Below, piece by piece: positions 1 through 60,252 of a DNA stretch of 64,000 nt. This stretch comes from Pseudokineococcus lusitanus (GTDB lineage: Bacteria; Actinomycetota; Actinomycetes; Actinomycetales; Quadrisphaeraceae), in NCBI RefSeq assembly GCF_003751265.1, contig NZ_RJKN01000004.1, positions 310,001-374,000 of the forward strand, written 5' to 3'. Made by a program: the position numbers and the translations under genes. The notes beneath the pieces were generated by a model. The model saw nothing but the letters and a program-made list of their open reading frames with translations, was not told the origin of the DNA and searched no databases. The first letter of the stretch is position 1. Each line of letters opens with the position of its first letter.

Positions 1-746
1 GCCACCGGCCCGGTGAGCGCGTCGTCGCCCGCGCGCAGCGCCCCGTCGAGGGCGGCGTGCAGCAGCGGGGCGAGGGCACGCCCGGGGTCCGCCACCCCGG
101 CGGCGGCCAGCAGCTCGCGCGCCTGGGCCACGAGCGTCACGACGTGGTTGGCGCCGTGCGAGAGCGCCGCGTGGTACGTCGCGCGGTCCTCCTCGGCGAC
201 GACGACGGGCTCCCCGCCCATCTCGACGACGAGGGCCTGCGCCACCGGCAGCACCGGGCCCGGCGCGGTGACGGCGAACGGGCAGTCGACGAGGCGCGCG
301 AGGTCGAGCGAGGTGCCGGTGAAGGTCATGGCGGGGTGGACGGCCAGCGGGATGGCCCCCGCGGCCCGGGCCGGGGCGAGCACCCCGACGCCGTGGATCC
401 CGGCGGTGTGGACGACGAGCTGCCCGGCCTGCCAGCCGCCCGTGGCGGCCACGCCCGCGACGAGGCCGGGCAGGACGTCGTCGGGGACGGCGAGGAGGAC
501 GAGCTCCGCGCGGCGGACCACCTCGGGGACCTCGAGGAGGGGCACGCCCGGGAGCAGGGCGTCGGCGCGCTCGCGCGTCCGCTCCGAGACGCCGGAGACG
601 CCGACGACGGCGTGGCCCGCCCCGCGCAGCGCCGCGCCGAGGACGGCACCCACCCGGCCGCCGCTGACGACGCCGACGCCGAGCCGGCCGGGCCGGGCGG
701 CGGGGTCGCCCCCTGCGTCGCCCGGTCGGGGCGTCCCCTGCTGCAC
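1..746 (-). CDS. Rossmann-like DUF2520 oxidoreductase (3' end cut by window)
   Basis: NAD(P)-binding protein of the Rossmann-like plus DUF2520 family, distantly related to pyrroline-5-carboxylate and ketopantoate reductases; the substrate is not known. Read from the GTG at 746, the nucleotide-binding segment GVVSGGRVGAVLGAAL is at about residues 23-40. It is followed by the LLAVPDDVLPGLV strand and a histidine-rich stretch (LVVHTAGIHG, LAVHPAMTFTG) typical of DUF2520. About 248 residues are visible and the reading frame runs off the left edge without a stop, so the C-terminus is missing. It is divergent from the methyltransferase at 811. In many actinobacteria this gene precedes panC, which would lie outside the window. 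Family call is firm, function is open. Confidence 0.85.
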   Translation of the reverse strand, partial: MQQGTPRPGDAGGDPAARPGRLGVGVVSGGRVGAVLGAALRGAGHAVVGVSGVSERTRERADALLPGVPLLEVPEVVRRAELVLLAVPDDVLPGLVAGVAATGGWQAGQLVVHTAGIHGVGVLAPARAAGAIPLAVHPAMTFTGTSLDLARLVDCPFAVTAPGPVLPVAQALVVEMGGEPVVVAEEDRATYHAALSHGANHVVTLVAQARELLAAAGVADPGRALAPLLHAALDGALRAGDDALTGPV

Positions 747-810: not shown

Positions 811-1542
811 GTGGGCAGGCACGAGCGGGTCGCGGCACTCGTCGGCGACGACCTCGCCGGTCAGGCCGTGGCCGACCTCGGCTGCGGCCCGGGGCGCACC
901 GTCCGTGCGCTCCTCGCGGCGGGACCGGCGCGGGTGCACGCCCTCGACCGGGCGTCCGGCCTCGACGACGACCTCCTCGCCGACCGCCGGGTGCGCAGCC
1001 GCCTGGCCGACCTCGACGACGGGCTCCCCCTCGACGACGGCGTCCTCGACGCGGCCGTGTCGCTCAACGTCGTCGAGCACCTCGCGTCCCCCGTCGACCA
1101 CCTCGTCGACTGCCACCGCGTCCTGCGGCCGGGCGGCCGGCTCGTCCTCGCGCACAGCGACTGGGACACCGCGCTCTTCACGAGCACCGACGACGCGCTG
1201 ACACGGGCCCTCGTCGACCGGTTCGCCGCCGCGGCCGCCGGCCCCTCCACCCGCTCCGACGGCTTCATGGGGCGCAAGCTGCCCGCCCTGGCCGACGCCT
1301 CGGCCGCCGCGGGCGCGCCGTGGGAGCTCGTCGCCGTCGACGTCTGGGCCGACCCGCACCGGCGCTTCGACGACGGGTCGGTGGCGTGGAAGGTCGCGAC
1401 GGCCGTCCTCGCCGCCGCGGCCGACGACGCCGCCCTCGCCGCCCGTGCCGCGGGCTGGCTCGAGGACCTGCGGGCGCTGGCCCGGGCCGGGCAGTTCCTC
1501 TTCGCGGTCACCGACGTCGCGGTGGTGCTGGAGCGCCGCTGA
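811..1542 (+). CDS. Class I SAM-dependent methyltransferase
   Basis: Predicted soluble S-adenosylmethionine-dependent methyltransferase of 243 residues. Motif I, DLGCGPGRTVRALL, lies at about residues 22-35. The acidic post-I strand (VHALDRASGLDDD) follows. The DAAVSLNVVEHLASP motif near residue 85 and the RVLRPGGRLVLAHSD motif near residue 105 are classic for Methyltransf_11-type enzymes. The start is the GTG at 811; the upstream reading is antisense to the DUF2520 gene. It is transcribed away from the DUF2520 gene with about 64 bases between the two starts. Nothing in the sequence shows the acceptor; an ASMT-like small-molecule methylase is one possibility. A solitary gene, not obviously in an operon. 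Confidence 0.88.
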   Translation: MGRHERVAALVGDDLAGQAVADLGCGPGRTVRALLAAGPARVHALDRASGLDDDLLADRRVRSRLADLDDGLPLDDGVLDAAVSLNVVEHLASPVDHLVDCHRVLRPGGRLVLAHSDWDTALFTSTDDALTRALVDRFAAAAAGPSTRSDGFMGRKLPALADASAAAGAPWELVAVDVWADPHRRFDDGSVAWKVATAVLAAAADDAALAARAAGWLEDLRALARAGQFLFAVTDVAVVLERR

Positions 1543-1593
1543 CCGTCGGCGGGAGGACGACCACGACGTCTCGTCCGGATCTCCCGGTGGTGG

Positions 1594-4476: not shown

Positions 4477-5568
4477 TCAGCGGCCCCGGGTGACGAGCGA
4501 CTGCACCTCGGCGACGTCGAGGGCGAGGGCGCTCGTCCGGGTGATCGGCGTGAGGGCGCCGCCGGCCACCGGCGTCCCGTCCGTGACGCCGTCCCACGAG
4601 ACCGTGTACGACGTCGTCGTCCGGACGTCGAAGCCGCCCGGCTGCCCGGCGCTGGAGCGCTGCGGGGTCAGCGTGCAGCCCGCCGCGTCGGCGGCCCCGG
4701 GGGCCCACGCCGTCCGGGCCGCCTCGGCGGCGCACGAGGCGCTGCCGGTCGCGGAGCGGGCGGTGAAGAGGTCCGGCTCGGCACGGACGGTCGCCGAGCT
4801 GGCACCGGCGGTCGCGGTGATCTCGACCGGCACGAAGCCGTCCGCCGCGTCGGCGCCGTCGGTGACCCACAGCCAGCTGGGCAGCGAGACGTAGCCGCGG
4901 GCGGTGGGGTTCGTCTCGACGTCGGGCTCGGGGACCGTGATGGCCTCCTGCGCGATCTGGAGGAGCTCCTCGGCCGTCACGACGGGGGGCGGCGGCGGGG
5001 GCGGCGCCTGGCCCTCCGGCACCCACAACCACTCCGAGGAGGGGCCGCCGGTCGCCCCGGCCCGCAGCGTGTCCTTGCACGCCCGCGTGGCGGCCGTGTA
5101 GTCGAAGGAGCCGCTCGAGGCGCCCGACAGGTCCTGCCCCTGCGCGGTCTGGCCGACCAGGACGTACCAGCCGCCGGCCTCGGTCGAGAGCTGCTCGACG
5201 ATGTCCGTGGGGACGACCTCGTTGTTGAGCGAGCCGCGCGTGCCGGGCCCGTAGGAGCCGAGGAAGGACTCGCCGTCGTAGAGCGGGCCGTCCCAGTAGC
5301 AGGCCGGGGGCTTGGAGATCGTGCGCGTGGCGCTGCCGCCCCCGCCGCCCGACGGGCCCCCCGACCCGACGCCGTTGCCGGTGAGGGTGACCGAGATGGC
5401 GACGGCGCCGAGCGTGGAGCCGTCGGAGTCGCCCCGCGCCTGGCCCGCCGCGACGCCGCCGTCGCCCGGCGCGGCCGCCACGGGCGAGGCGACGGCCGTC
5501 GCCGTGACGACCGCCGCCACCAGCAGGGCGGCCGGGCGTCGTCGGGAGGCGGTGGGACGTCGTCGCAC
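4477..5568 (-). CDS. Secreted hypothetical protein
   Basis: A 363-residue protein with an N-terminal Sec signal peptide: an Arg-rich start, a hydrophobic core (AALLVAAVVTATAVA) and a likely cleavage after residues near 33 (VAAAPG). The mature part has a Gly/Ser linker near residue 70, a Cys-containing segment (KPPACYWDG), a proline run (seven consecutive Pro) near residue 190, and two further Cys near the C-terminus that could form a disulfide. Domains of this pattern occur beside secretion or cell-wall genes in actinobacteria, but I do not recognise a defined family. It stands alone between the PH operon and a lipoprotein gene. Function is unknown. Confidence 0.75.
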   Translation of the reverse strand: MRRRPTASRRRPAALLVAAVVTATAVASPVAAAPGDGGVAAGQARGDSDGSTLGAVAISVTLTGNGVGSGGPSGGGGGSATRTISKPPACYWDGPLYDGESFLGSYGPGTRGSLNNEVVPTDIVEQLSTEAGGWYVLVGQTAQGQDLSGASSGSFDYTAATRACKDTLRAGATGGPSSEWLWVPEGQAPPPPPPPVVTAEELLQIAQEAITVPEPDVETNPTARGYVSLPSWLWVTDGADAADGFVPVEITATAGASSATVRAEPDLFTARSATGSASCAAEAARTAWAPGAADAAGCTLTPQRSSAGQPGGFDVRTTTSYTVSWDGVTDGTPVAGGALTPITRTSALALDVAEVQSLVTRGR

Positions 5569-11006: not shown

Positions 11007-12908
11007 TCAGCGCACGCGCACCGCGACGAGCGCGACGTCGTCCTCCCGCACGGCGGGGGCGCAGCCCTCGAGCACGGCGTCGCACAGCCGCTGCGCGGAG
11101 CGCCGGACCTCCGGCGGCTGCTCCGAGAGCACCTGCACGAGACGGGCCATGCCGGTGTCGACGTCCTGGTCCCGCCGCTCGACGAGCCCGTCCGTGGCGA
11201 GGACGAGGACGTCGCCGCGGACGAGCCGGAGGCTCTGCGGGGTCCGCTCGCTGCCGTGGTCGACGCCCAGCAGCAGGTCGTGGTCGCCGGAGGCGATGCG
11301 CGCGGTCCCGTCGGCCCCGAGGACCACGGGCGGCGGGTGGCCGGCGTTCGACCAGACGAGGCGCCGGCCGCCGCCCGGCAGCTCGTCGAGCCGGGCGACG
11401 ACGGCGGTGGCCGTCGTCCCGAGCCCGAGGCCGTGCATCGCCTCGTCGGTGCGGCGCAGCACCTCGTCCGGCGGCTCGTCCGTCGTGTAGGCGATGCCGC
11501 GCAGGAGCCCGCGCAGCTGGCCCATCCCCGCGGCCGCCTCGACGTCGTGGCCCATGACGTCGCCGATGACGACGAGCGGCGAGCCGCTGGGCTGGACGAG
11601 GACGTCGTACCAGTCGCCCCCCACCTCGGCGCGGCGCGAGGCCGGCTCGTAGCGCACCGCGACGTCGAGGCCGGGCAGGCGCGGGGGCGGCGTGAGGAGG
11701 CTGCGCTGGAGGCCCTCGGCGAGGCGCTTCTGCGCGCGGAACAGCACGGCGGCGTCGACGGCGATGCCGGCGCGGCGGGCGACCTCCGTGGCGGCCTCGA
11801 CCTCTGCCGCCGAGAACGGGCCCGACGCGGGCTCGCGGACGAGCGTCAGCGTGCCGACCGCCCGACCGCGGACGACGAGCGGCAGCACCATCCCCGCCCC
11901 GGGGTGCAGCGCGCGGAAGGCCGCGGCCGTGCGCGGGTCGGGCAGCGTCGCGTCGATCTCGGCGTCGGTCACCTGGTCGGTGACGTTGGCCCGCAGCGCG
12001 GCGAGCGACTCCCCGACCCGGGGTCCCGGGGCCGGCCCCGAGCCGAGCAGGCGCGCCAGGGCGACGACCTCGGCCGTCCGCCCGGCGTCGCGGTGGGCCG
12101 CGCCGCTGGGGCGCCAGCGGCCCGCCTCGTCGACGAGCAGGAGGACCGACCAGTCCGCCAGCGTGGGGACGACGGCGCCGGCGAGCGCGCCGACGGCCCG
12201 CTCGGCCCACTCGGCGCCCTCCTCCTCGGTGACGTCCGCGGTGGGGCGCGCCGGCGCGGTGGGCGCGAGCACGCGGCCCACCTCGGCGAGGACGGCCAGG
12301 CGGTCGCGGGCCCCCCGCACCTCGGCGAGGACGGCGGCGCGCTCGGCCTCGGCGGCGAGCCGGTCGAGCGCCTGGCCCGCCATGCTGGCCAGCGCCTCGA
12401 GGAGCGGGCCCGCCTCCGGCCCGGCCGCGCCGGCCCACCGGAGCCCGAGGGCGCCGACGACGGTGCCGTGGCACCGCAGGGGCATGGCGGCCGCGGCGGC
12501 GACCCCCTCCGCGGCCAGCCCGGGGAAGCGGCGGGCCACGCCGTGCGGCGAGACGGCCGCGACGACCCGCCCCGTGCGGGCGGCCACGACCTCGGGCAGG
12601 CGGTCGGCGTCGTCGACCGGCGTCCCGGGGCCGGCCGGTGCCGCGTCCGTCCAGCGCAGCGCTCCCGCACCGGGCGCCGCGGTGCTGTCGGGGCGTGGCT
12701 CGGGGAGCAGGACGACTCCGGCGGCGGACGCCCCGGCGAGCCGGCGGCCGGCGACGAGGAGCAGGCGGACGACGTCGGGCCGCGAGCGCGCGGTCGCCAG
12801 GGCCGCGGACGTGTCGAGGAGGCCCCAGGTGCCCTCGCCCGGGGCTCCCGGCGCTGCTTCGGCCCCCGGCACGGCCACCTCGACCTCCTCGGCTCTCGCT
12901 CCCCGCAT
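11007..12908 (-). CDS. GAF-domain SpoIIE-type PP2C phosphatase
   Basis: A 633-residue signalling phosphatase, probably acting on phosphorylated anti-anti-sigma factors. Two GAF-like regions cover roughly residues 30-175 and 190-375; the second contains AGMVLPLVVRGRAVGTLTLV. The C-terminal PP2C domain (about 400-633) has the metal-binding motifs EVGGDWYDVLV, VIGDVMGHDVEAA and the closing REDDVALVAVRVR. The start is the ATG at 12908; longer reading upstream is overlap with other genes. It lacks obvious membrane segments. An anti-sigma-like ATPase is present at 27649, but no partner gene is adjacent here, so the target is unknown. Confidence 0.9.
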   Translation of the reverse strand: MRGARAEEVEVAVPGAEAAPGAPGEGTWGLLDTSAALATARSRPDVVRLLLVAGRRLAGASAAGVVLLPEPRPDSTAAPGAGALRWTDAAPAGPGTPVDDADRLPEVVAARTGRVVAAVSPHGVARRFPGLAAEGVAAAAAMPLRCHGTVVGALGLRWAGAAGPEAGPLLEALASMAGQALDRLAAEAERAAVLAEVRGARDRLAVLAEVGRVLAPTAPARPTADVTEEEGAEWAERAVGALAGAVVPTLADWSVLLLVDEAGRWRPSGAAHRDAGRTAEVVALARLLGSGPAPGPRVGESLAALRANVTDQVTDAEIDATLPDPRTAAAFRALHPGAGMVLPLVVRGRAVGTLTLVREPASGPFSAAEVEAATEVARRAGIAVDAAVLFRAQKRLAEGLQRSLLTPPPRLPGLDVAVRYEPASRRAEVGGDWYDVLVQPSGSPLVVIGDVMGHDVEAAAGMGQLRGLLRGIAYTTDEPPDEVLRRTDEAMHGLGLGTTATAVVARLDELPGGGRRLVWSNAGHPPPVVLGADGTARIASGDHDLLLGVDHGSERTPQSLRLVRGDVLVLATDGLVERRDQDVDTGMARLVQVLSEQPPEVRRSAQRLCDAVLEGCAPAVREDDVALVAVRVR

Positions 12909-25028: not shown

Positions 25029-26360
25029 GTGAGCACGTCGGGGACCGGAGGGCTGCGCGCGTACGCCGAGGTCCTCGGCACCGGGGCGGCGTCCCGCCCC
25101 TTCCTCGCCGCGGTCGTCGCGCGGCTGCCGATCGCCATGGCGCCGCTGGGGATGATCCTGCTCGTCGAGGAGGTCTACGGCCGCTACGCGCTCGCCGGTC
25201 TCGTCGCCGGCGCGTACGCCGTCGGCGTCGGCGTCGGCTCGCCGGTGTGGGGGCGCGGGTACGACCGGCTCGGCCAGAGCCGGGTCATCGCCCCGACCGT
25301 CGTCGTCAGCGCGACGACGCTCGTGGTGCTCGCCCTGTCCGCCGCCCGGGACGCCCCCTTCCCCCTCGTCGTCGTGCTGGCCCTCCTCGCCGGCGCGACC
25401 GCGCCGCCCATCAGCTCGGCGATGCGCATGTCGTGGCGTGCGGTCCTGCCCCGGCACCGGTGGCGCACGGGCTACGCGCTCGACGCGTCCGCGGTCGAGT
25501 TCGTCTTCGTCGGCGGGCCCGTCGTCCTCGCGCTCGCCGAGACCCGGATGCCGCTCGGCGGCCCGCTCCTGCTGACGGCCGCGCTGCACCTCACCGGCGG
25601 GCTGGCCTACGCGGCGTCGGGGCCCGCCCGCCTGCGGCCGCAGGACGCCCCGCCGCTCGACGGCCCGGAGGCCGTCCTCGCCGACGCGCTGGCCGACGAC
25701 GACCGCGCCGAGGCCGTCGAGGCCCGGCCGGCGGTCGCGACGGCCGGCCGCGTCCTCACCGGCCCGGTGGTCGCCGTCCTGCTCGTCGGTCTCGTCATGG
25801 CGCTGTCGTTCGGCTTCGTCGACACCTCGCTCGTCGCCACGGCCCGGGAGCTCCTCGGCGACGAGGGGCGCCTCGCCGTCCTCTTCGCCGCCATCGCCGG
25901 CGGCAGCGTCGTCGGCGGCCTCACCTACGGGGCGCTGCCCGGCTCGCCGACGGAGCGGCGGCGGGTGCCCGTCCTGCTGACGGGCTTCGGCACCGGCCTG
26001 CTCGTGCTCGCGCTGCTGCTCGGACGGGACGGCGGCGTGCCGCTCCCCCTCGTCCTCGTGGTGCTCTTCGTCACCGGGCTCTTCATCGCGCCCGGGCTCA
26101 TCCTCCAGCAGGGGCTCGTCGACGGGCTGGCGCCGGAGGGCCGCCGCGGCGAGAGCCAGGCGTGGCTGTCGACGGCGACGACCGCGGGCGGCGCCGGCGG
26201 CACCGCCGTGGCCGGGCTGCTCGTCGACGTCGGCGGCCCGCCCCTCGCGCTGGGCGCCGGGGCCGTGGCCGTCTACGCCGCCGTGGTGCTCGGCGTCCTC
26301 GTCCAGCCGGCGTGGGCGCGGGGGCTGCGGCACGTCGCGTCCGCCCGTCAGGGCGTCTGA
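25029..26360 (+). CDS. MFS transporter
   Basis: A 443-residue twelve-helix major facilitator. Helices are obvious, for example GLVAGAYAVGVGVGSPVWG, and the conserved cytoplasmic loop GRGYDRLGQSRV between helices 2 and 3 corresponds to motif A. A central charged loop (about residues 205-235, DALADDDRAEAVEARP) splits the halves. The second half includes LVMALSFGFVDTSLVA and LFIAPGLILQQGLVDG. The GTG at 25029 starts right after the divergent flavoprotein gene (75-base gap). Substrate unknown; efflux is the common role for this arrangement. Confidence 0.88.
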   Translation: MSTSGTGGLRAYAEVLGTGAASRPFLAAVVARLPIAMAPLGMILLVEEVYGRYALAGLVAGAYAVGVGVGSPVWGRGYDRLGQSRVIAPTVVVSATTLVVLALSAARDAPFPLVVVLALLAGATAPPISSAMRMSWRAVLPRHRWRTGYALDASAVEFVFVGGPVVLALAETRMPLGGPLLLTAALHLTGGLAYAASGPARLRPQDAPPLDGPEAVLADALADDDRAEAVEARPAVATAGRVLTGPVVAVLLVGLVMALSFGFVDTSLVATARELLGDEGRLAVLFAAIAGGSVVGGLTYGALPGSPTERRRVPVLLTGFGTGLLVLALLLGRDGGVPLPLVLVVLFVTGLFIAPGLILQQGLVDGLAPEGRRGESQAWLSTATTAGGAGGTAVAGLLVDVGGPPLALGAGAVAVYAAVVLGVLVQPAWARGLRHVASARQGV

Positions 26361-47714: not shown

Positions 47715-48659
47715 ATGAGAGCGGCCCGCTTCCACCGGTACGGCGGCCCCGAGGAGCTGAGGGTCGAGGACGTGCCCGAGCCGCACGCCACGGCGGGCAC
47801 CGTCCGGGTCCGCGTCCTCGCCGCCGGCGTCAACCCGATCGACTGGAAGCTGCGCCGCGGCGACCTGCGCGGCGTCGTGGACCCGCCGCTGCCGCTCGTG
47901 CCCGGGCGGGACGCCGTCGGCGTCGTCGACGAGGTCGGCGAGGGCGTCGACGACGTGACGACCGGCGACACCGTCTTCGGCAGCGCGGGTCTCGGCGGGC
48001 TGTCCGCGGAGCACGCCGTGCTGACCGCGTGGGCCGCCCCGGCCGCGGGCTGGTCGGTCGAGCAGGCGGCCTCCGCCGGGCTGGCCATGACCACGGCCGT
48101 CCACGCCCTCGCGGCGGTCGGCGTGCTCGAGCCGGGCACCTCGGCGCCCGGCCCCGTGGGCCGTGCGGGCGGGACCGTCCTCGTCGAGGGTGCCTCGGGC
48201 TCGGTCGGCGCCGCCGCGGTCGTCGCGGCCGTCGCCGCGGGCGCCCGCGTCGTCGGCACGGCCCGTCCGGAGAACCACCGCGTCCTCGAGGAGCTGGGGG
48301 CGGTGGCCGTCGCGCACGGCCCGGGCCTGGCCGGGCGGGTCGCCGCCGTCGCCCCGGAGGGCGTCGCCGTCGTCCTCGACGCGGCGGGCGCCGACCTCGA
48401 CCAGCTCGTGGCGCTCGTCGGCGACCCGGCGCACGTCGTCACCGTCGTCGACCCCGTGGCCGCCGGTCGCCTCGGCGCGCTCGTGGCCGGCGGCGAGAAC
48501 GACGTCGCGGCGCTCCGGACCGCCGCCGCGCTCGGCGAGCGGGGGCTCTACCTGCCGCGCGTCGGACGCACCTTCCCCCTCGAGGAGGCCGCGGCGGCGC
48601 ACCGGCTGGCCGAGGGCGGGTTCCCGGGCGGCAAGGTCGTCCTCGACCTGCGGCGGTAG
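47715..48659 (+). CDS. NADP-dependent oxidoreductase (quinone oxidoreductase-like MDR)
   Basis: A 314-residue zinc-free medium-chain reductase. It opens MRAARFHRYGGPEELRVEDVPEP, the usual entry of quinone oxidoreductase-like MDR enzymes. The nucleotide-binding motif is LVEGASGSVGAAAVVAAVAAGA, with core GASGSVGAAA, and the end is GRTFPLEEAAAAHRLAEGG. Catalytic zinc ligands are not present. The ATG at 47715 has GGAGAGGA eight to ten bases upstream. It is divergent from the kinase gene over 165 bases. Two overlapping hairpins follow at 48671-48746. Confidence 0.92.
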   Translation: MRAARFHRYGGPEELRVEDVPEPHATAGTVRVRVLAAGVNPIDWKLRRGDLRGVVDPPLPLVPGRDAVGVVDEVGEGVDDVTTGDTVFGSAGLGGLSAEHAVLTAWAAPAAGWSVEQAASAGLAMTTAVHALAAVGVLEPGTSAPGPVGRAGGTVLVEGASGSVGAAAVVAAVAAGARVVGTARPENHRVLEELGAVAVAHGPGLAGRVAAVAPEGVAVVLDAAGADLDQLVALVGDPAHVVTVVDPVAAGRLGALVAGGENDVAALRTAAALGERGLYLPRVGRTFPLEEAAAAHRLAEGGFPGGKVVLDLRR

Positions 48660-48670
48660 GCGCGGGCGGG

Positions 48671-48714
48671 GTGGCCGTCCCTGCTCGTGCACCTGCGCGA
48701 CGAGGGACGGCCAC
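48671..48714 (+). terminator. Terminator hairpin of the quinone-reductase gene
   Basis: Arms GTGGCCGTCCCT (48671-48682) and AGGGACGGCCAC (48703-48714), 12 base pairs with a loop of 20 that can pair further (GCTCG/CGACG region). Twelve bases after the stop at 48659. Its last four bases belong also to the next hairpin, so only one of the two can form. Confidence 0.72.
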
Positions 48715-48746
48715 CTCGGGCGCCGGCGGGTCGGCGCCCGAGGTGG
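48711..48746. terminator. Second hairpin, overlapping the first and abutting the tRNA repeat array
   Basis: Perfect 15-base arms: CCACCTCGGGCGCCG (48711-48725) and its complement (48732-48746) around GCGGGT. Its right arm ends on the first base of repeat copy 1. It could end read-through of the minus-strand tRNA transcript, and it competes with the 48671-48714 stem because of the shared CCAC. Confidence 0.68.
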
Positions 48747-48895
48747 CGGGACTCGAACCCGCGACCGCCCGATGACACGTCGGGTCGGCGCCAGGGGCCA
48801 GCAGCGGGACTCGAACCCGCAACCGCCCGATGACACGTCGGGTCGGCGCCAGGGGCCAGCAGCGGGACTCGAACCCGCAACCGCCCGATTACAAG
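48746..48895 (-). repeat. 58-base tandem repeat of the tRNA-Thr 3' half
   Basis: Copies begin at 48746, 48804 and 48862, exactly 58 bases apart. Copies 1 and 2 agree at 57 of 58 positions. The third is the true tRNA gene, agreeing over the first 28 bases. On the tRNA strand each unit holds the 3' side of the anticodon stem, variable loop, T arm and (copy 2) the full acceptor 3' strand, then a 24-base spacer that ends in an imitation anticodon arm CCCGACGTGTCATCGGG. Copies 1 and 2 lack the 5' half (D arm and acceptor) and cannot be functional tRNAs. Confidence 0.88.
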
Positions 48896-48926
48896 TCGGG
48901 TGCGCTACCAGTTGCGCCATGCTGGC
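48855..48926 (-). tRNA. tRNA-Thr (anticodon UGU)
   Basis: A 72-base cloverleaf: acceptor GCCAGCA pairs with TGCTGGC; D arm GCGC/GCGC with loop AACTGGTA; anticodon arm CCCGA-CTTGTAA-TCGGG with anticodon TGT; T arm GCGGG-TTCGAGT-CCCGC. No encoded CCA (CCC follows). The 3' half is duplicated downstream as a 58-base tandem repeat. Confidence 0.93.
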
Positions 48927-58850: not shown

Positions 58851-59181
58851 CCGTCGACGCTACCGAGCGGGCGCCCGCGGGGGCCGACGGCCGCCCCCGG
58901 CACGGACCGTCACCTCTTCGGCGGGGGTGCTCCCGCGGCCGTCACCGGTGGTGCATGATGACGCCCGCACGGCGACGACGCCGTCCGCACCCCGGACCGC
59001 ACCGTCGCCGCGCCGGGACACGCCTCGAGGTCGAGCGCGCGTCCCGGGGGCCACCCCGTGCTCGTCGCCGAGCGCACGGCCCCGCACCACGGCACGACGG
59101 CGTACGTGGCTCCCGCCCCGGACGCCCGGCAACCCCTACGACGGATCGTCCGGCACGTACCTGCCGGTGGGAGGACACACC
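58851..59181. other. 331-base region between LacI and MsmK-type genes
   Basis: Non-coding divergent region. It should hold the promoters of both genes. I see no convincing palindromic LacI operator and no ORF that looks like protein. The Shine-Dalgarno GGGAGGA before 59182 is clear, and the leader of the ATPase gene is unusually long for this genome. Confidence 0.55.

Positions 59182-60252
<1,071 letters not shown>

Follow-up and report, generated by a model that had tools for sequence, protein, structure and literature searches.

The window analysed here, a stretch of 64,000 nucleotides from Pseudokineococcus lusitanus, carries on its minus strand an intact tRNA-Thr(UGU) gene (48852..48926; called by ARAGORN and matching the Rfam tRNA model with 70.8 bits at 48854-48926), and downstream of it, also on the minus strand, two copies of the 3' half of that tRNA at 58-base steps. 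The first copy (48794..48843) runs from the anticodon arm to the acceptor strand and is 96% identical to tRNA positions 26-75; the second (48746..48785) is 93% identical to positions 26-65, with its acceptor strand replaced. Whereas the anticodon arm of the tRNA reads CCCGA-CTTGTAA-TCGGG, the arm of both copies (minus strand, 48826..48842 and 48768..48784; motif matches G000:C4:358826-358842 and G000:C4:358768-358784) reads CCCGA-CGTGTCA-TCGGG, the loop being changed by U33G and A37C and the anticodon TGT being kept. Neither ARAGORN nor Rfam calls a tRNA at either copy. A strong hairpin (48711..48746, minus strand) adjoins the second copy on its 3' side and is perhaps the end of the tRNA transcript, and a second strong inverted repeat (48670..48715, assigned to neither strand), between the array and a convergent gene, is a possible two-way terminator; both were read from the sequence and folded. 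The convergent gene, alcohol-dehydrogenase-like, ends at 48659, beyond both inverted repeats. Elsewhere in the window, ARAGORN calls a 91-base tRNA-Arg (25595-25685) that has no Rfam support and is probably false, and an msiK RNA (RF01747, 54.3 bits) lies at 59124-59182 on the plus strand.

An earlier note on this DNA had described the 3' half as present three times at exact 58-base steps, with 57 of 58 bases shared by copies 1 and 2. The coordinates and the step are right (blocks start at 48746, 48804 and 48862), and the identities recompute to 57/58 for blocks 1 and 2, 44/58 for 1 and 3, and 45/58 for 2 and 3, but the third block is part of the tRNA itself, so that the array consists of two extra copies and the tRNA. 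The rebuilt anticodon stem of the same description is indeed found as an altered arm in both copies, with the correction that the farthest copy is without the tRNA acceptor strand. The best 58-base self match in the window, at lags of 20-999, is 58/58 at the Thr array and 46/58 at the next lag; since this is far beyond the window background, the array is not a product of chance. Its TRF score is 291, against 114 for the next best repeat. An assembly artefact is also unlikely, because other assemblies, of two further genomes, carry the same kind of array. The first copy is chimeric, having the altered loop of the second copy and the tail and spacer of the tRNA, and the tail of the second copy differs from that of both the first copy and the tRNA; such a chimera fits the product expected of unequal crossing over between a tRNA and a copy.

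Four genomes of the genus Pseudokineococcus were compared, namely that of the window (G000), G001, G002 and G003, the neighbourhoods in G001 being short because its assembly is in 580 contigs. We scanned the 500 bases downstream of 142 tRNAs (39, 26, 37 and 40 in G000 to G003, respectively), with upstream sequence and the reverse complement as controls; as these are 142 of 178 Rfam tRNA matches (46, 41, 45 and 46), further cases were possibly missed. Six tRNA loci score 58 to 90, and the controls and every other tRNA score 27 or less. These six are Thr(UGU) in G000 (two copies), G001 (one) and G003 (three), Arg(UCU) in G001 (three) and G003 (one), and Arg(CCU) in G000 (one); G002 is without a copy at all three genes. 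Copy number at the Thr locus therefore varies among the relatives, and the constancy that the earlier note would have counted against its readings is not seen. The Arg(UCU) copies of G001 (L164, about 4676-4880) are in tandem with a spacing of 78 bases and have one T-loop base changed, the single Arg(UCU) copy of G003 (L130, about 4690-4730) is degenerate, and the Arg(CCU) copy (L094, about 580-628, minus strand) lies just upstream of a gene that by eye is aldo/keto reductase-like. The gene that follows tRNA-Arg(CCU) is the same in all four species, with or without a copy. At tRNA-Thr, the genes between the tRNA and a conserved aldo/keto reductase gene differ among the genomes: G002 has a CorA family gene there, G000 carries a different set, and G001 and G003 have yet others. 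Beyond the Thr 3'-half copies of G001 and G003 (L030 and L029), there are direct repeats around GGCTACGAAGTCC, roughly 40-50 bases apart.

All 11 copies in the genus lie downstream of their parent tRNA on the same strand, with spacers of about 12-38 bases, the distance from tRNA to copy being about 12-35. Eight copies were compared with the parent tRNA; with the changed bases allowed, their identity to it starts between positions 22 and 30, in or beside the anticodon stem, and the left flank of the remaining three is the same as that of a compared copy. By reading, the acceptor strand is kept in 9 of the 11 copies. The T loop is broken or altered in five (the three G001 Arg copies, one G003 Arg copy and one G003 Thr copy).

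The loop changes recur at more than one tRNA gene. In the Arg(UCU) copies, the loop CTTCTAA has become CGTCTCA, with U33G and A37C as in the Thr copies, and in the Arg(CCU) copy of G000, TTCCTAA has become TTCCTCC, with A37C and A38C and with U33 kept. Thus, every one of the 11 copies has A37C and all but one have U33G, the anticodons being kept throughout, at three tRNA genes and in few independent events. If any change is allowed, the rough odds are 0.0003 that both Thr changes turn up again among the three by which the Arg copy differs from its tRNA; they are 0.006 if only A/T to G/C changes are counted, an apt restriction where GC content is high. Conversion is by itself not enough to explain the shared change, because a tract passing from Thr to Arg would have brought base 35 along, and that base is not the same in the two. 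All three parent tRNAs read ANN codons (chance 0.02), which is only a hint. Two candidate causes were rejected: losing a -10-like hexamer would leave U33G without a reason, and A37C as the removal of a TAA stop in a spurious frame does not hold, the frames differing between copies. The parallel change at two different tRNA genes is odd and unexplained. A bolder interpretation, which we hold to be possible but rather doubtful, is that the genus has a family of 3'-half repeats behind ANN-codon tRNAs, in which U33-A37 is switched to G33-C37 (Thr and Arg-UCU) with the anticodon kept, and that this symmetric switch is either the core of a novel family of integrases, which would target these tRNAs and leave their own overlap in attR, or the mark of a selected anticodon-arm RNA.

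Folding gives no reason to see a structured product in the unit. The earlier note had proposed that the loop changes allow G-C pairing across the anticodon, and G33 and C37 are indeed complementary; such a pair is possible on paper but absent from the predicted fold, in which the 17-base anticodon arm has -5.5 kcal/mol for copy and tRNA alike and the seven-base loop stays open. A D-armless tRNA-like fold of the unit was considered and rejected, being no better than shuffles (z -0.12). The whole 267-base stretch (z -4.0) and its last 135 bases (z -4.7) both include the terminator-like hairpins. No sign of function for the copies was seen in the sequence and fold analyses.

In light of these features, how might the copies have arisen? 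One option is site-specific integration, for which there is a case at the same gene. In G012, of another genus in the same family, an intact tRNA-Thr(UGU) lies on one contig and its 3' half (positions 27-75) on another; the fragment, which keeps the normal loop, has beside it a phage-type integrase (PF00589, 57.5 bits) and is followed by the flank seen in G011, a relative in which the gene is uninterrupted. A tyrosine-integrase element therefore appears to occupy the same tRNA gene in G012, with a boundary similar to that of the genus copies, although we infer this element, since its two contigs are not joined in the assembly. In the window's own genome, a 38-base 3' fragment of tRNA-Lys(CUU) with a foreign left flank is found near an integrase, and an element probably lies between tRNA-Lys(CUU) and this fragment (G000:C1, about 591035-639800), with the integrase near its far end. 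Two side observations concern similar pieces. In G008 (L066, about 1180-1221), a remote piece resembles tRNA-Thr(UGU) positions 34-75 (81%), is without the normal anticodon arm, and is possibly another integration scar; and near the end of viral contig L034 (minus strand, 12712-12744), a tRNA 3' half with the anticodon arm CCCGACTTGTAATCGGG, a normal loop and a T arm has a left flank unlike a tRNA and looks like an att site.

The genus copies share some of the properties of attR fragments. They are end pieces that start at a known crossover subsite and lie downstream in the orientation of the tRNA, but no island with an integrase was found between tRNA and fragment, nor any element with a matching attP. 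None of the three copy-bearing tRNA genes in the genus genomes has an element left, and only one of the 12 rows of integrase-domain matches in the four genomes is on an array contig (G000:C5), some 173 kb off. A right flank equal to that of an uninterrupted relative is seen in G012 versus G011; in the genus, the neighbours differ at Thr and are the same at Arg(CCU). The idea that the array is the scar of repeated integration at a tRNA att site, put forward in the earlier note, thus keeps its first half, as the copies begin at the anticodon arm, most reach the 3' end, and the apparent G012 element has a similar boundary. Repetition of the integration is not borne out: no element lies between copies, no integrase match of the genus is near any array, and the equal spacers and the chimeric first window copy fit local recombination. 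Likewise, an attP with the altered core was looked for among viral contigs and genomes and was not found. A common left flank of the Thr and Arg copies, as from one element, was set aside as marginal: in 17 comparisons, uncorrected, the lowest p was 0.022 when judged by shuffles and 0.035 when judged by background. Also rejected was the notion that the copies are whole tRNA duplicates with a decayed 5' half: eight spacers are unlike the 5' half (p 0.097-1.0), and neither a copy alone nor a copy with its spacer gives a complete tRNA.

Beyond the genus arrays, the altered loop next to a T arm was not found in viral contigs, 297 relatives or 394 genomes of the class. The Thr motif occurs in one of 293 other relatives searched (G241), without tRNA context, and when the genome contigs of 84,980 species (a set that may leave out the window's own record) were searched for the Thr pattern together with a T arm, five stretches matched, two of the genus and three without a T arm. 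Altered-loop stretches that by eye lack tRNA context (one in G241, five from other genera, L177-L181, and one in G625) were discarded, as were 16 and 2 in viral contigs, all without a T arm by eye. Matching phage and plasmid records number 410 and 103, none covering more than 80% of the query; among the 20 matches listed for each, several are annotated tRNA-Thr and many are unannotated. In a wider survey of the 394 genomes of the class for two consensus T loops 42-71 bases apart, 11 match, and seven loci were read; the matches in G022 and G539 look like coding DNA, and that in G048 was judged by its likeness to G116. In G541, a distant genome, a 3'-half copy lies behind tRNA-Arg(UCU) (L235, about 1480-1552, minus strand) with the loop CTTCTCA (A37C, U33 kept) and a T stem that is different yet fully paired. 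The tRNA-Ser(GGA) gene of G226, a genome from a different family of the class, is followed by two 70-base 3' parts in tandem (L226, about 1438-1700). A T-arm and acceptor piece behind tRNA-Gln(UUG) in G459 may be a further 3' fragment, and the other four loci read look like neighbouring tRNAs or other tRNA-like pieces. Given the survey cases outside the genus, tandem tRNA 3' parts, though rare, are not peculiar to it. The joint U33G and A37C change beside a T arm was seen only in this genus in the searches made, and among open-access titles and abstracts we found no description of tandem tRNA 3' halves with altered anticodon loops.

We propose, with a confidence a little short of even, that the copies are displaced fragments of the att type, left behind by an element that has since gone, and that local recombination later multiplied them and made them alike. 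A tyrosine-integrase element would have integrated through the anticodon arm of tRNA-Thr(UGU), giving the tRNA a new 3' half and pushing a 3' half downstream as an attR-type fragment, of which the case in G012 is an example at the same gene. The element would then have been lost, with a short spacer left behind, and the leftover half would have been multiplied and kept alike through unequal crossing over between direct repeats, a step that the chimeric first copy shows in part. The copies would be without present function. If strand exchange runs across the seven-base loop with mismatches, its usual order implies that the daughter chromosome whose tRNA keeps the host loop has the element's loop in attR. 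The loop changes may therefore be the overlap of the element, left in attR by a mismatched exchange in which the tRNA kept the host loop; given this order, such an exchange would explain a normal tRNA standing beside altered copies. Alternatively, the loop changes may be later drift, retained at the edge of a homologous block. Taken together, the array most likely has no function and is what remains of a site-specific integration that was followed by amplification on the spot.

Since the searches for an element, an integrase close by and an att site to match the altered-loop copies found none, a serious rival is local partial tandem duplication without any mobile element, which we consider plausible though clearly below an even chance. 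Here, a stretch made up of the tRNA 3' half and its trailer would be copied through slippage or recombination between short repeats; unequal crossing over would then alter the copy number, and the copies would drift as pseudogenes. The short spacers and the want of an element agree with this, as do the two tandem 3' parts behind tRNA-Ser(GGA) in G226 and the sequence ACCCG, which in the window's array occurs within the tRNA, opens each unit, and recurs past the last copy. The trailer behind the last copy is informative as well: its likeness to the tRNA trailer, which agrees with local duplication whether or not an element stood at the beginning, is clear in two of the six loci (at G000 Thr, 0 of 390 background pieces are as good, and at Arg(CCU) p is 0.015). 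The same likeness, however, is weak in two loci (p 0.062 and 0.128) and absent in two (p 0.88 and 0.92), and by our reasoning a local duplication spares the tRNA wherever it starts, yet the starts are seen at positions 22-30. Nor does drift predict the same two changes at two tRNA genes, at the odds given above.

Selection on the altered-loop copies is an unlikely account. The copies could be kept as RNA, in the form of an anticodon-arm mimic made from the tRNA transcript, or as DNA, in the form of a symmetric site for a recombinase or other protein, given that the pair 33-37 has gone from T-A to G-C at two tRNA genes. In favour of selection, A37C and U33G recur almost throughout, at three tRNA genes and with the anticodon kept; A37C is seen again in the distant G541 Arg(UCU) copy; and the parent tRNAs have ANN codons in common. 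In addition, the six Thr copies from three genomes have one and the same anticodon arm, although the spacers differ between G000 and G001/G003. The first G000 Thr copy and the G001 copy have a common run of 47 identical bases, and the second G000 copy is identical to the G001 copy at 39 of 40 bases up to its lost acceptor strand; a neighbouring gene is 86-87% identical between these genomes, and 45 unchanged bases at 87% have a probability of 0.002. This likeness is no clean sign of selection, because the tail of the first G000 copy came from the tRNA by recombination, and the remainder of a copy can be held constant through conversion by the tRNA. Further arguments against selection are the few independent loci, the damage to the T loop in 5 of 11 copies, a unit that folds no better than shuffles with G33-C37 outside the predicted fold, and G002, which does without copies at these three genes. 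Least of all do we credit the earlier suggestion that the copies are decoys or sponges for tRNA-binding factors, which we judge very improbable: the array, lying between the tRNA and the terminator-like hairpins, may be transcribed, but positive support is lacking, as the T loop is so often damaged and the unit folds like shuffles, the changes at positions 33 and 37 take away the bases by which enzymes acting on the anticodon arm usually recognise it, and one to three copies would, we reason, titrate little.

Returning to integration followed by amplification, several known systems resemble the array in part. The repeats of the E. coli tyrT operon (rtT RNA) carry a piece of the tRNA 3' end and, as here, are direct repeats behind a tRNA gene; unlike them, the repeated piece here is of about 47 bases and has the anticodon arm and T arm. 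RtT RNA is described in PMC4986893, and the window has no RtT match at the Rfam gathering score. A second comparison is with actinophage attP sites. Their cores are of 30-45 bp with mismatches in some phages, and lysogeny is tRNA-dependent (PMC10865867); such an attP holds a tRNA 3' half and may differ from attB at single bases, as the copies differ from the tRNA, but no phage or attP with these changes was found in the searches made. Third, integration sites are divided into class I (anticodon-loop) and class II (T-loop), as for mycobacteriophages L5 and Ms6 (PMC1762012). Exchange in the 7-base anticodon loop, as at class I sites, would account for the left boundary of the copies, whereas the two loop mismatches between copy and tRNA are normally a hindrance to exchange.

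The closest likeness is to the attR fragments of tyrosine-integrase islands and prophages (the Islander "tDNA fragment"). Integration is reported to produce partial tRNA copies (PMC9897764, PMC4383910), and the anticodon-type subsite of tRNA att sites yields a fragment running from the anticodon arm to the 3' end (PMC4383910). The copies have the same extent, strand and side as these fragments, and the same tRNA gene is apparently used by the G012 element; they differ in having no island or integrase in between, in being several and in tandem, and in the same loop change in each Thr copy. Because an island, an integrase and a matching attP were sought and not found, we class the array as a variant, and not a strict member, of the displaced tRNA fragments. 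Should the loop change be an overlap left by a lost element, the arrays record past integrations in the element's absence and show which strand's loop the tRNA kept; if it was selected, the arrays would represent a new use for anticodon-arm copies. Against the known systems, the array is unusual in copy number, position and parallel loop change: such fragments are normally found where an island ends, far from the tRNA, and within this one genus they follow the tRNA directly, as tandem copies at two tRNA genes and as a single copy at another, with the same two-base change around the anticodon at two of the three.
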